Part shown: piece after piece, positions 17,351 through 23,752 of the stretch | Position numbering within the stretch: position 1 is the stretch's first letter | Layout of the letters: each line of letters begins with the position of its first letter | Assembly (NCBI RefSeq): GCF_016307205.1 | Contig: NZ_JAEIJD010000002.1 | Location: 1-64,000 of the forward strand | Direction of reading: 5' to 3' | DNA from: Pontibaca salina | GTDB lineage: Bacteria > Pseudomonadota > Alphaproteobacteria > Rhodobacterales > Rhodobacteraceae | Length of the DNA stretch: 64,000 bases | The notes under the pieces: generated by a model | What the model was told of the DNA's origin: nothing | The model's database searches: none | Seen by the model: the letters and a program-made list of their open reading frames with translations, nothing else | Made by a program: the position numbers and the translations under genes

Positions 17351-18466
17351 TTACTGGTTTATGGCAACGAAATAACCGACGATTCCGGCGGCAATCAGCC
17401 CCATAATCACCGCGATTGCGATCTTGATGGCGGACCAGGGCCGCTCGCCCTGAACCCGGCCGGATTCGCCGTTGACCACGAAGCGATAGGTCCGGCCGCG
17501 ATATTTGTAAGCCGCCAACCAGACCGGCAATAAAACATGTTTGAACGTTACGTCGGTCACGTCGGTCTTGATATCATGGATGCGCTGGCGATCGCCGCCG
17601 ATGTCGAATCGTACGTCGCGTTCTATGACGCGCGCCATATGGGCGCGCGCCTCGGCGAAGCCGTCGGAAAGGTCGACAGTATAGCCTTCGGCGTGAAATC
17701 CGGCCAGGTATTGCGGCTGGTAGGGCTGCAGTGCGCCCAGATCCCAAGGCTGCAGCGCGTCAGTATAGGCTTTCGGCAGGCTTTGCGAGGCCAGCACCAG
17801 CACATCGTCGAAAAACCGCGCGACGCGGCCTGATACGCGGTTCCAGCGCACTTTGGCCACGCGTTTTTGCACGCGCTTGCCGTCACGCATGACAGTGCGC
17901 GTGGCGTAATAGACCGTGCCGCGTTCGCCGCGATAGCGCGATTGCGTATCCGCATCGAAAGTCCAGTAGGGCACATAGATCCCCTGCATCCGCCGCCCCT
18001 TGCGGGCATATTTGCGCAACCCGTTCGGGGCGAACCACAGGCTGCCCAGCCAGTCGGTCATGGCCTTGCGGGCGCTGCGTTCGTCCACGGAAAACGGCAG
18101 AACTCCACGCGGTTTAATCTGCCTTTGCGCGCCGGTGTCTGTGACGATGGGGGTGGCGCAGAACGGGCATTCGGTGGCGTGGCTGTCGGGTGCGAATTCG
18201 ATCTGCGCCCCGCAATTGGGGCAAGACAGCGCGCGGATTTCCTCAAATTCCTGTGCGGGCAGGTGATGGGCTAGGGCGGCTTCGAAATCCTGTTCTTTCA
18301 GCGCAGTGCCCAGCCATGGAGACGACGCGACAGGTTCTTCATGGCCGCAATGGTCACAGTGCAGCACATCACGGGCCGGGTCGAACCGGTAATCGGCCCC
18401 GCAGTTTTCGCAGGGAAAGCGGTGCTCGATCGGCGCGGGTGGCAGCGCTGGGCTGGCGTCGGACAT
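17351..18466 (-). CDS. Zinc-ribbon membrane protein (TFIIB-type zinc finger family)
   Basis: A 371-residue protein with an N-terminal zinc ribbon (CENCGADY...CDHCGHEE, about residues 18-43), a second pair (CPNCGAQ...CPFCATP, about 78-104), a central beta-rich region with YVPYWTFDADTQSRYRGERG, and one C-terminal transmembrane helix (IAIAVIMGLIAAGIVGYFVA). Annotation pipelines often call this family primosomal protein N'-like, which I do not accept because no helicase motifs exist. I place the start at 18466; the ATG at 18475 would be only one base from GGAGG. It resembles, as I remember it, the YdjG type that in Bacillus is encoded with PspA and an SPFH protein. Its SD lies inside motif copy D. 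Confidence 0.82.
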   Translation of the reverse strand: MSDASPALPPAPIEHRFPCENCGADYRFDPARDVLHCDHCGHEEPVASSPWLGTALKEQDFEAALAHHLPAQEFEEIRALSCPNCGAQIEFAPDSHATECPFCATPIVTDTGAQRQIKPRGVLPFSVDERSARKAMTDWLGSLWFAPNGLRKYARKGRRMQGIYVPYWTFDADTQSRYRGERGTVYYATRTVMRDGKRVQKRVAKVRWNRVSGRVARFFDDVLVLASQSLPKAYTDALQPWDLGALQPYQPQYLAGFHAEGYTVDLSDGFAEARAHMARVIERDVRFDIGGDRQRIHDIKTDVTDVTFKHVLLPVWLAAYKYRGRTYRFVVNGESGRVQGERPWSAIKIAIAVIMGLIAAGIVGYFVAINQ

Positions 18467-18475
18467 TGATTTCAT

Positions 18476-18508
18476 GCCTCCGGCGGGGATATTTTGCGCA
18501 AGAAGAAA
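18476..18508 (+). repeat. Rhodobacterial intergenic motif, copy D
   Basis: This copy reads gcctccggcggggatattt followed by tgcgcaagaagaaa on the + strand. It occupies the 45-base gap between the SPFH gene and the zinc-ribbon gene, both read from the other strand, so in the mRNA it appears reversed and its ggagg falls where the downstream gene needs a ribosome binding site. Confidence 0.75.
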
Positions 18509-18511
18509 TGC

Positions 18512-19624
18512 TCAAGGGGCAGGTGGTGGCGGCGGTGGCATTACCGTAAATAACTGGGCAAGCTCATCGACCTCGCCCGCGCGCAGCCAGCCATCTTGCC
18601 CTGGCGTCCAGACATGGGTTTCACGGCTGAGCGAACCGTCTGCAGCCATGCGTCCAAGATCGGCCCGCGAAAATGGCCCGCGAGACTGCCCCTGTTCGGC
18701 GATGTGCCAGACCCGCTCGACCGGCGGCGGCGGTGGTGGCGTGGGCTGGGTCGGGACTGTACCCCACGGCCCCGGCTGTGCCATCTGCGCGCCCATCGCC
18801 ATGCCCATACCAGCCCCCAGCCCTGCGGCCATGCCGCCACCAGCGGGATTGCGCGCGGCGGTGCTCATCGCTTCGGCGGCGGAATATTGGGTGAATTTGC
18901 CAAGGTCGCCGGCCAGCCCCATCGAGGAGCGCTTGTCCAGAGCCTCTTCGACGGCGCTTGGCAGCGAGATGTTCTCGATATAGAGTTCGGGCGTGCCGAC
19001 GCCATATTCTTCCAGTGTGGGTGCGATTTGCGTCGCGATCAGCTTGCCCAGATCTGCGGTGTTGGCGGCCATGTCCAGAACCGGAATACCCGACGCGGCA
19101 ATGGTGCGAGAAAACTCCTGCACGATGATATTGCGCAGTTGGAAGCTGATCTCGTCCATGGTGAATTCACCATCGGTGCCGACGATTTCCGACAGAAAAC
19201 GCGCCGGATCGGTCACCCGTACCGAATAGGTGCCAAAGGCGCGGATGCGCACCGGTCCAAATTCGGGATCGCGGCAGATGATCGGGTTCTTGGTGCCCCA
19301 TTTCAGATCGTTGAAACGGGTGGTATTGACGAAATAGATTTCCGATTTGAACGGGCTGCGAAACCCGTGATCCCAGTGCTGAAGTGAGGTCATCACCGGC
19401 ATGTTGTTGGTTTCGAGCATGTAAAGTCCGGGGGTGAAGACATCAGCGGTCTGGCCTTCGTGTACGAAAACGGCAGCCTGACCTTCACGCACGGTCAATT
19501 TGGCGCCATATTTGATTTCATGGCCTTCACGCTGAAAGCGCCAGACCATGGTATCGCGGGTGTCATCGGTCCAGTGGATAACGTCGATGAACTGTCCCGA
19601 GAGAAAATCAAAGATACCCATCAT
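18512..19624 (-). CDS. SPFH-domain protein with C-terminal GYF-like domain
   Basis: A 370-residue protein. Residues about 1-265 form an SPFH/virion-core-protein-like domain starting MMGIFDFLSGQFIDVIHW, with FRSPFKSEIYFVNTTRFNDLKWGT and a predicted helical segment ending in LGKFTQYSAAEAM. A Gly/Met/Pro-rich linker with a run of Pro leads to a C-terminal GYF_2-like module (VWHIAEQGQSRGPFSRADLG...WTPGQDGWLRAGE, about 308-355). SPFH proteins oligomerise on membranes. GGAAAGGA lies 5 bases before the start. Neighbours (TelA-like, XpaC-like, zinc-ribbon) match membrane-stress operons, so a scaffold role at the inner membrane is inferred. Confidence 0.86.
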   Translation of the reverse strand: MMGIFDFLSGQFIDVIHWTDDTRDTMVWRFQREGHEIKYGAKLTVREGQAAVFVHEGQTADVFTPGLYMLETNNMPVMTSLQHWDHGFRSPFKSEIYFVNTTRFNDLKWGTKNPIICRDPEFGPVRIRAFGTYSVRVTDPARFLSEIVGTDGEFTMDEISFQLRNIIVQEFSRTIAASGIPVLDMAANTADLGKLIATQIAPTLEEYGVGTPELYIENISLPSAVEEALDKRSSMGLAGDLGKFTQYSAAEAMSTAARNPAGGGMAAGLGAGMGMAMGAQMAQPGPWGTVPTQPTPPPPPPVERVWHIAEQGQSRGPFSRADLGRMAADGSLSRETHVWTPGQDGWLRAGEVDELAQLFTVMPPPPPPAP

Positions 19625-19647: not shown

Positions 19648-20613
19648 TCACAGTTCCATGCCCATCAGTTCATGTGCGATGGCGAGAGCAATCGGGCGCG
19701 CCTCATCCGCGGTCATGCCTTGTTTCAGGCGGGGATCATAGAGAAGTTTCAGCAGCAATTCATCATGTCTGGTCAACAGCGCGAATTCGTTATCATCGTT
19801 GAAGATCGAAGGGCGCGCCGCCGCACTGTCATTGGGCAGTCCCAGACCCTGCGCGATCTCTTCGTGGATGCAGGAAAGGCGCACGAGATCGGGGTGTTCG
19901 GCGCGGATCAATGCGATGGCGCGCGAATAATTGTGGGGATCTTGTGCCGAGGACACCGCGACGACCATGCAATAAAACGAGCGCGGCAGATGTCGGAACA
20001 GGCCAAGTTCGACCCGGCTGATATCGGGGACAAGTTGGTTCAGACGACGCAGCAATTGCTCGTTGTCATCGTCGCCCGCCACAAAAACGTGGAAATTGCC
20101 GCCGCTGCGGACCCCGGTGATGGAATGGCCGGTGACACGGGAAAGGCGGCTGGCATATTCATTAATTGCGGCCTGATCGCGCCGCCGCTGGTCGAGCGGA
20201 ACGCTGGAGCCAAACTCGGCACTGATGCGCACCGGCTGTGACCATCGGTTGAGCCCGCCGCTGGCACCTCCGGCCCGCAGCCCGCCGCCGCGGGTATATT
20301 CATCGAAAAACGCGATATTCTCGAAGTTGCGCACCAGATCCTCGGGCGAAAACGGCGTGTCCGGCCCTCCGCCATCGGTGCGCAACAGGCCCTGAACCAG
20401 TAAATCGTCCTGAATGCGGATGTAATAGTCTTGAAGATCGCTGCTTTGAGCCGAGCGCGGGGTGACCACCGGTTGCACCGCTTTTGCCAAACCGCCGGGG
20501 CGGTTGGGGGGCACCACCGAGGCCGGAGGCTGTGGCGCGGTGCAGGCGGTCAGGGTGACAGCACCTGCCGCCGACAATGTTGCGGTACAAAGCCGCAGAA
20601 AGTTACGACCCAT
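19648..20613 (-). CDS. DUF2927 lipoprotein
   Basis: A 321-residue predicted lipoprotein: MGRNFLRLCTATLSAAGAV followed by a lipobox LTAC with the acylated Cys near residue 24, then a Pro-rich linker. The C-terminal part carries the DUF2927 features SCIHEEIAQGLGLPNDS and SIFNDDNEFALLTRHDELLLKLLYDP. HEEIA looks metalloprotease-like, but the second His of HExxH is absent, so I do not claim activity. The start is uncertain: a GTG at 20625, 5 bases after the TelA-like stop, is an alternative. It belongs to the XpaC-TelA-SPFH operon and would place one component in the periplasm. Confidence 0.83.
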   Translation of the reverse strand: MGRNFLRLCTATLSAAGAVTLTACTAPQPPASVVPPNRPGGLAKAVQPVVTPRSAQSSDLQDYYIRIQDDLLVQGLLRTDGGGPDTPFSPEDLVRNFENIAFFDEYTRGGGLRAGGASGGLNRWSQPVRISAEFGSSVPLDQRRRDQAAINEYASRLSRVTGHSITGVRSGGNFHVFVAGDDDNEQLLRRLNQLVPDISRVELGLFRHLPRSFYCMVVAVSSAQDPHNYSRAIALIRAEHPDLVRLSCIHEEIAQGLGLPNDSAAARPSIFNDDNEFALLTRHDELLLKLLYDPRLKQGMTADEARPIALAIAHELMGMEL

Positions 20614-20630
20614 TTCCAAAGCCACCCACC

Positions 20631-21821
20631 CTAACGGGGGACTGCGGTTGCCGCAGTGTCACCGGTACCGTGGTTGCGGGCCTTGGCCGATGCCAGCGTA
20701 TCGCGCAGCTCGGCCTCCAGCTTTTGCAGTTCGGCTTCGGCTTGGGCGCGGCGGGCCTTGCCCTCGTCGGCGATCTGCAGGCTTTCCTCGATCGTGCCGA
20801 TCAGATCGGCATTGGCCTGTTTAACCGCCTCTATATCGAACACACCGCGCTCCATTTCCTGCCGGATTATCTTGTTGCTATCGCGCAGATTGGCTGCGTT
20901 CTTCGTCAACAGTTCGTTGGTCAGGTCGCTGGCCTCGCGCACTGCACCTGCCGCTTCGGCACTGCGCTGGATAGTGACCGCTTGGGCCAGCTGGGTTTCC
21001 CAAAGCGGCACCGTGTTCACCAAGGTCGAGTTGATCTTGGTCACCAATGATTTGTCGTTTTCTTGGACCAAGCGGATACTGGGCAGCGATTGCATGGTAA
21101 CCTGCCGGGTCAGTTTCAGATCATGGACCCGGCGCTCCAGATCATCGCGCGCGGCGCGCAGATCGCGCAGCTCCTGCGCCTTCATCACCTGATCGTCCTC
21201 GGCGGCCTGATCGACTTCAGCCGCTTTGACGGGGATGGTCTCGCTGTCCAACTGGTGCAGCTTTTCTTCGCCCGCGGCGATGTAAAGCGCCAGTTCGTCG
21301 TAGAATTCCAGCGTCTTTTCATACAGCAGGTCGAGAGATTTGATATCTTTCAGCAGCCTGTGCTCGTGTTTCAGTAAATCATCGGTAACGCTGTCGATTT
21401 GGCCTTGCACCTCTTCAAAGCGGGCAGTGAATTTGGCCAGCGGAGTCGCGCGGCCGATCAGCTTTTCCCACCACGACCGCTGGCGGCGGATGTCCAGTTC
21501 GCTGACTGAAAAGCCCCGGATCGTGGTGACGATGCCGCGCAGCGAATCGCCTGCGGGACCGACATCTTTATTGCGGACATCGGCCAGCATGGCTTGGCTG
21601 ATCTGTTGTAACTCGCTCTGCGCGCGCGCGCCGAAACCGACGATGGAACCGGTGTCGCTCATGTCGATTTCGTCGATACGTCGGCGGATTTCCGCGCTCA
21701 TCGAGGCATCGGCTTGTTCCAGCGACACAATTTCGGGTGATGGGTCGGACAGGGTGGCGGTGGTTACCTGCTCGACCTCGGCTGCGGTTTGCTGGGCCTT
21801 GCTGCGCACATCGTCAGACAT
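20631..21821 (-). CDS. Toxic anion resistance protein, TelA family
   Basis: A 396-residue, almost entirely helical and charged protein of the TelA/KlaA family, linked genetically to resistance to tellurite and to some antimicrobial compounds. Recognisable blocks are FSVSELDIRRQRSWWEKLIGRATPL, the central coiled coil (KSLDLLYEKTLEFYDELALYIAAGEEKLHQL) and LVTKINSTLVNTVPLWETQLAQAVTIQR. The start is the ATG at 21821 (agga upstream); an in-frame TTG precedes it. It follows the XpaC-like gene at 35 bases. XpaC-TelA pairs are common in many bacteria, and the biochemical role is not settled. Confidence 0.92.
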   Translation of the reverse strand: MSDDVRSKAQQTAAEVEQVTTATLSDPSPEIVSLEQADASMSAEIRRRIDEIDMSDTGSIVGFGARAQSELQQISQAMLADVRNKDVGPAGDSLRGIVTTIRGFSVSELDIRRQRSWWEKLIGRATPLAKFTARFEEVQGQIDSVTDDLLKHEHRLLKDIKSLDLLYEKTLEFYDELALYIAAGEEKLHQLDSETIPVKAAEVDQAAEDDQVMKAQELRDLRAARDDLERRVHDLKLTRQVTMQSLPSIRLVQENDKSLVTKINSTLVNTVPLWETQLAQAVTIQRSAEAAGAVREASDLTNELLTKNAANLRDSNKIIRQEMERGVFDIEAVKQANADLIGTIEESLQIADEGKARRAQAEAELQKLEAELRDTLASAKARNHGTGDTAATAVPR

Positions 21822-21856
21822 CAATGGAAATCCTTGTTACTGGAGCGGTTGTAAAT

Positions 21857-22741
21857 TTACTGTGGGCGCACGCCTTCACGTTTCAGGCGGTCGCGCAGCA
21901 CATCGATCTCGATGGTCAGGTCACTGCGGTCCTCAAGCAGCATTTTGCGGGTCCGGGCGGCGAAATTCTGTTCCAAATCATCAAGTAGGGCAAGATAATC
22001 CTCGCGTGCCTTGGCATCGCGACTGCGCGCATAGATATTCGCAAACCGCGCTGTCGCGTCGCGTGCCCCCATCAGATATACGGTCATGTATTTACGTGCG
22101 CCGGTCAGGTCGCGGGGGTCTTCTTCAACCGTGCGGAACAGATCGCGTGCGGTAGCCTGAAAGCGCTCGACCCGAGCGCTCATCCGGCGGTCATTTGCGC
22201 GGGCGATTTCCCGGGTCATATCGGCCAGATAGGTCTCGCCCTCGTCCACCGCGCGCGAGACGCGGGATTGCTGGAAATCGTCGACGCCAGGTGCGCCCTT
22301 GCTTGTCAGCGGGTCGAGACCGAAGGCGACCAAATGCAAGGCTCCCGCGACTAGACCATAAAGCGCCGCCCCCAGTGTGCCGCCGTCGGGCTGGGCCAGA
22401 ATCCCCGCCCCCACACCGAGCGCGGCCAACACCGCCGCCGCGATCTTGCGCGGAAAGGCCGGGCGGCGGGCCACTTTGCGCGCGTCATAAGCAGCTTGCG
22501 CACGCAGCCCGTCGCGCAACAGCCACGCCCCAAGGCCCAACAGTGCCGCGCCCAAAACACCAAAGCCAAGCCCGACCGGGCCTTTAAACAGCGACAGGAA
22601 GAATAGTAGGATCGGCGGAACGAACAGCAGGTTCGAGGCAAATCCGATCGGGTCGACCTGCGCGCCGTCAAAACTGTTCTTTGCTGTGGGGGCGACATCG
22701 TCGGTTTCGGGGCTGTATTTGCCGCCATAACGCTGCGCCAT
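21857..22741 (-). CDS. XpaC-like membrane protein (5-bromo-4-chloroindolyl phosphate hydrolysis family)
   Basis: A 294-residue protein with an N-terminal membrane region (two segments around residues 35-75 and further hydrophobic stretches at 95-150) and a C-terminal cytoplasmic helical domain (EARYDAR-like helices, IYARSRDAKAREDYLALLDDLEQNF). It resembles XpaC proteins found next to TelA. The name comes from a phenotype in Bacillus and does not describe a proven enzyme activity. It starts 3 bases after the stop of a 29-codon membrane microprotein gene, so the two are very likely translationally coupled. Confidence 0.85.
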   Translation of the reverse strand: MAQRYGGKYSPETDDVAPTAKNSFDGAQVDPIGFASNLLFVPPILLFFLSLFKGPVGLGFGVLGAALLGLGAWLLRDGLRAQAAYDARKVARRPAFPRKIAAAVLAALGVGAGILAQPDGGTLGAALYGLVAGALHLVAFGLDPLTSKGAPGVDDFQQSRVSRAVDEGETYLADMTREIARANDRRMSARVERFQATARDLFRTVEEDPRDLTGARKYMTVYLMGARDATARFANIYARSRDAKAREDYLALLDDLEQNFAARTRKMLLEDRSDLTIEIDVLRDRLKREGVRPQ

Positions 22742-22744
22742 GGC

Positions 22745-22834
22745 CTAAAGCCCCCCCAGCCACCCGGTCGCCACGCCGAGCAGCAGGACGATCAGCCCTG
22801 CATAAGCGATTCTCTGAACCGTGCGTCCTGACAT
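22745..22834 (-). CDS. 29-residue single-span membrane microprotein
   Basis: A short reading frame encodes MSGRTVQRIAYAGLIVLLLG followed by VATGWLGGL and TAG. It has a basic N terminus (two Arg) and one hydrophobic helix, about residues 10-27, predicting an N-in single-span inner-membrane peptide. A good ribosome binding site, aaaggg, lies 5 bases before the ATG, and the stop is only 3 bases before the XpaC-like start, so it looks like the first cistron of the operon. I do not recognise a family; the assignment rests on frame, RBS, spacing and hydrophobicity. Confidence 0.68.
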   Translation of the reverse strand: MSGRTVQRIAYAGLIVLLLGVATGWLGGL

Positions 22835-22930
22835 GATGGCCCTTTCGCTGGTTCGCTAAAGGGAATCTAGGCGATGCAGGGCGCGCTTGCCAGAGAGAAG
22901 CGACATAGGAGGCAAATCATACAGTATGGA

Positions 22931-23752
<822 letters not shown>

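Follow-up and report, generated by a model that had tools for sequence, protein, structure and literature searches.

The window analysed here (a 64,000-nucleotide stretch of Pontibaca salina DNA) contains, on its minus strand, a short open reading frame of 29 codons situated immediately ahead of a gene encoding an XpaC-like protein (Table 1). The frame begins with an ATG at 22834-22832 and ends with a TAG at 22747-22745, leaving 3 nt (GCC) before the xpaC ATG. An initial annotation of this DNA had described the ATG, an aaaggg 5 bases ahead of it and a stop 3 bases ahead of xpaC; all were recovered, on the minus strand. Reading 22745-22834 on the forward strand does not yield the frame. As the same annotation had noted, the predicted product pairs an Arg-bearing N terminus (Arg 4 and Arg 8) with one hydrophobic helix.

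Table 1. Features of the microprotein-xpaC locus and the genes that follow it
Feature	Position	Strand	Remarks
Upstream (-35-like) element CTCTCTGGCAAG	22886..22897	-	separated from the -10-like element by 15 nt; relatives show a stronger form
-10-like element CTAGATT	22864..22870	-	part of a conserved promoter-like motif; position read from the window sequence
Shine-Dalgarno-like AAAGGG	22840..22845	-	5 nt ahead of the ATG
29-aa microprotein ORF, MSGRTVQRIAYAGLIVLLLGVATGWLGGL	22745..22834	-	coordinates include the stop; conserved, coding-biased frame
XpaC-like protein, 294 aa, proposed partner	21857..22741	-	PF10112, E 3.2e-25; four hydrophobic segments and a helical C-terminal domain (AF2)
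TelA homologue	20631..21824	-	PF05816, 4.9e-106
DUF2927 protein with N-terminal lipoprotein-like signal (read by eye)	19648..20625	-	PF11150, 2.5e-62
SPFH (Band_7_1) + GYF_2 protein, YdjI-like	18512..19624	-	PF13421, 1.4e-100
Zinc-ribbon protein with C-terminal hydrophobic segment, possibly YdjG-like	17351..18475	-	weak zinc-ribbon matches; YdjG likeness inferred

The XpaC-like gene scored 89.6 bits against PF10112 (Halogen_Hydrol), the cut-off being 29.8. The N terminus of its product (window about 22709-22741, minus strand) possesses a strongly conserved M-A-x-R-[FY]-G-G-x-[YFH]-S-P segment followed by a disordered linker. In some genomes (L013, about 530-1316; also G004, G027 and G055), a second, divergent XpaC paralogue lies directly upstream of the microprotein-xpaC pair.

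Comparison of named loci revealed a recurrent gene order. TelA was present in 80/80 (79 of these were scored as same-strand and downstream), the DUF2927 gene in 79/80 and the SPFH gene in 75/80. Upstream, the motif CCCCCTAGCAAG-N15-CTANNTT was found with up to 3 mismatches in 105 of 181 regions, compared with 1/181 shuffled regions, its -10-like part most often about 37 nt before the microprotein start. A promoter-like motif in this position makes the microprotein the apparent first cistron. Moreover, a Shine-Dalgarno-like motif preceded 172/181 short-form starts and only 17/181 control intervals. By these comparisons, the microprotein gene heads a promoter-proximal XpaC-TelA-DUF2927-SPFH operon, and its earlier placement at the head of an XpaC-TelA operon is borne out. 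The SPFH/GYF_2 and zinc-ribbon genes (17351-19624, minus strand) point to a possible connection with a Psp-like (YdjI/YdjG) envelope-stress system.

A small gene under purifying selection

Across Rhodobacteraceae, 209 XpaC loci were inspected: 50 from relatives, 79 named genome loci and 80 from further genera. A single-span ORF of 24-34 aa, or a longer two-span form, was present directly upstream of xpaC in 206 of these, its end only a few bases from where xpaC begins. Three loci depart from this pattern. In Tateyamaria sp. ANG-S1 (L096) an M23-peptidase-like gene separates the microprotein ORF (MEPTAFQKIAFAALIALMFGVTLGLLGGL) from xpaC, and in L250 (genome G587) the two are separated by an inserted stretch carrying an oppositely oriented ORF; the microprotein frame is intact in both. 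In L036 (G042), the xpaC start is misplaced beside a run of N, and the genome has a match to the microprotein profile (3.8e-7) elsewhere. The two insertions are independent, and in L250 a further copy of the promoter-like motif precedes xpaC itself, at -143.

Alignment of 75 ungapped 29-codon alleles gave an in-frame dN/dS of 0.24 (pS 0.52, pN 0.18), compared with 1.4 and 2.6 in the other two forward frames. One reverse frame gave 0.38, as expected because its third positions coincide with variable ones. Variability was highest at third codon positions (0.53 vs 0.33 and 0.19). The initial annotation had suggested looking ahead of xpaC in relatives for a conserved frame with synonymous substitutions; the dN/dS value is a strong positive answer. 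The frame also stays open in the relatives inspected; the annotation had named stops or frameshifts there as evidence against it. On this comparative evidence, we consider the microprotein frame to be a genuine conserved gene under purifying selection. GC-rich DNA often contains short open frames, which speaks for a chance frame without a product; conservation across nearly 300 genera sampled, the synonymous bias, the enrichment of Shine-Dalgarno-like motifs and profile E-values reaching 1e-16 leave that reading almost no probability. Short of experiment, the comparative data refute it.

Two architectures exist. In 24 of the 206 loci, the ORF encodes a long form of 67-77 aa with two spans, in the order MxRL-hydrophobic-linker-microprotein (L018, L020, L021, L023, L025, L037, L108, L114, L123, L127, L128, L130, L171, L181, L189-L191, L202, L208, L209, L214, L228, L231 and L238). 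The long form is scattered over the XpaC tree, where the long/short state needs 12 changes, implying that the extra span has been gained or lost repeatedly. None of the 182 short-form loci was found to encode the extra N-terminal span in an upstream ORF of its own.

The window peptide had no match in Pfam or NCBIfam, nor did the interval 22600-23100 match any family in Rfam, a search that would miss RNAs outside known families. Among 51 relatives of the microprotein scanned, there was no NCBIfam match and the best Pfam hit was PetL (E 0.0017, 3/51 members). The microprotein likewise produced no qualifying match to the curated models of KdpF and other known small-subunit families. Thus, the earlier description of the frame as unannotated holds for the three databases checked, Pfam, NCBIfam and Rfam. 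The microprotein does possess a single predicted span, is conserved and is co-encoded with a partner, and by these features we classify it as a new family of a known kind, the small single-span subunits (compare KdpF). Members of 24-34 residues lie around or below the usual gene-calling cut-offs, which are 30 aa and above (PMC11796252).

Association with XpaC

An HMM profile built from 51 members of the microprotein family was searched in 298 genera of Rhodobacteraceae. It matched in 259 of them (about 87%) at E<=1; XpaC was found in 261 of the same genera. At E<=1e-3, the profile matched in 217/261 genera with XpaC and 1/37 without, as tallied from two match tables with genomes absent from the listings inferred by subtraction. 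The sole match lacking XpaC came from an incomplete genome (E 5.7e-4). Eleven genera with XpaC had no microprotein match at E<=1, and some divergent copies escape the profile. In 114 of the 115 microprotein-XpaC pairs listed in both tables, the two genes share a strand and are separated by 2-17 nt; the remaining pair is that of G587. In these genomes, the microprotein thus goes with XpaC both in gene position and in the genera where it occurs.

Outside the family, a small hydrophobic ORF was present upstream of all five outgroup 4-span XpaC loci read (L131, L144, L145, L147 and L150, the ORF of L147 lying about 330 nt away), which span four other alphaproteobacterial families. The 2-span XpaC loci that were read yielded no such ORF, in search windows that were not identical for all loci. 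The outgroup loci gave no significant match to the family HMM profile. In a phylum-wide sample, this type of XpaC occurred mainly in the family of the window, and a search of plasmid and phage collections returned no annotated neighbour.

Physical association was assessed by mean-field DCA on 206 paired microprotein-XpaC sequences (effective number, Neff, 139). The best inter-protein couplings, L29-P55, L18-V110, G13-F47 and T23-L49, rank 6, 7, 13 and 28 among intra-XpaC couplings and fall on XpaC TM1 and TM3. The same four led across pseudocounts, a gap-free subset and a nonredundant set (variants computed on full columns). For the membrane part, the top score was 7.0, compared with maxima of 6.6 (k=4) and 5.6 (k=8) upon re-pairing of near relatives and 5.0 upon random re-pairing; the k=4 margin is small, and 22 re-pairings per k limit the precision of the near-relative null. 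With MI-APC in place of DCA, the strongest inter-protein scores did not exceed the near-relative null, indicating that shared ancestry accounts for much of the plain covariation, which is dominated by a deep split between two microprotein types. The top twelve DCA couplings gave a depth mismatch of 0.34 for an N-in/C-out orientation vs 0.98 when flipped, with span boundaries and depths assigned by hand. An AF2 model of the frame read through its stop, a construct used as a co-folding device and not as a biological claim, had a mean pLDDT of 90.1, with 91-93 for the microprotein helix and below 50 for the linker; pLDDT is a local measure and silent on packing. Taken together, the couplings support a placement in which the microprotein would pack against TM1 and TM3 of XpaC, its N terminus cytoplasmic and its C terminus outside.

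Interpretation and known systems

The best explanation of these data, and in our judgement a probable one, is that the microprotein is a small single-span inner-membrane subunit of XpaC, amounting to a fifth TM helix on its own polypeptide. It would be made just before XpaC, insert in the membrane and complete or stabilise the XpaC membrane domain. This might in turn enable XpaC and TelA, along with the SPFH protein of the downstream gene, to function in a response to envelope stress or toxic anions. Of the two roles raised in the initial annotation, regulator or subunit, the covariation favours a subunit on TM1/TM3 and disfavours a free regulator. A bolder proposal, possible if doubtful at present, is that XpaC has an inherently split membrane domain. 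Its fifth helix would be a separate, exchangeable microprotein (one span, or a two-span hairpin in some lineages) whose binding gates an XpaC-TelA-SPFH complex, and the pairing may extend to 4-span XpaC across Alphaproteobacteria.

Other accounts were weighed against the XpaC-subunit reading. The microprotein might instead be a small membrane regulator acting on TelA, the SPFH protein or lipids; the TelA and SPFH genes share the operon and small single-span regulators are common. We regard this as unlikely, since the ORF accompanies XpaC of the 4-span and not the 2-span type and the couplings found, in an analysis confined to XpaC, lie on TM1/TM3. The ORF might also be a leader: its translation would chiefly serve to control xpaC through translational coupling, and its peptide would have no function. 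At most loci no more than about 7 nt separate its stop from the xpaC start, and the two often overlap (TGATG type); the ORF is also the first cistron after the promoter-like motif. Yet the amino-acid sequence is conserved at the dN/dS already given, which points to more than translation alone, the ORF survives the L096 and L250 insertions, 24 loci make the longer product and the peptide shows DCA couplings to XpaC; a leader is accordingly quite improbable. Stop-codon read-through into xpaC was rejected as a mechanism because the two frames keep no constant register, ends falling at -4, -3, -2, +1 and others.

Known short membrane toxins resemble the microprotein in size and hydrophobicity, and a type I toxin-like peptide lying beside xpaC by chance was considered on this account. 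The near-universal fixed linkage to xpaC, on the same strand and in the sense of the operon, the absence of the microprotein where XpaC is absent and, as regards the antisense RNA expected beside a type I toxin, the lack of any match to known Rfam families in 22600-23100 render it very improbable.

XpaC and TelA represent stress-resistance genes that are widespread and have no established mechanism. For XpaC, no match to a solved structure was obtained either by sequence (PDB search with the XpaC profile) or by fold (Foldseek of the read-through AF2 model against the PDB, none at E<=0.001). A conserved and probably obligate partner of XpaC would offer a concrete handle, and constructs with XpaC alone would miss a helix. 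The passages on XpaC-TelA found in the literature make no mention of an upstream microprotein.

The core sigma-W envelope-stress regulon of Bacillus subtilis includes xpaC-yaaN, and pspA-ydjGHI also depends on sigma-W (PMC3498285). PspA is connected to the membrane by the SPFH protein YdjI together with YdjG/H (PMC8581546). In Listeria, disruption of lmo1967, which encodes a TelA/YaaN-like product, gave a mutant with higher sensitivity to nisin and tellurite (PMC12791056). On the strength of these precedents, the likeliest role of the microprotein is that of a structural XpaC subunit in an envelope-stress module, and by analogy the XpaC-TelA-SPFH module of this bacterium may serve in envelope stress. 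The B. subtilis XpaC-YaaN (TelA) system shares with the window an operon uniting xpaC and telA; that operon is listed as xpaC-yaaN, without a microprotein (PMC3498285). With PspA-YdjGHI, the window operon shares, by domain type only, a YdjI-like SPFH protein and perhaps also a membrane protein with a zinc ribbon.

PetL, CcoQ/FixQ and CydX, small subunits of respiratory complexes, are each a single hydrophobic helix packed on a large membrane subunit, a contact likewise predicted for the microprotein. The PetL match is, however, weak and not reproducible across members, and the identified operon genes include no cytochrome genes. KdpF, of the KdpFABC K+ pump, is a protein of about 29 residues with one span, encoded by the first gene of its operon and adjoining the gene of the membrane subunit that it stabilises. 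Whereas the partner of KdpF is a P-type ATPase complex and the proposed partner of the microprotein, which has no Pfam or NCBIfam match to any such family, is XpaC, the two small proteins share their size, single span, first-gene position and adjacency to the partner.
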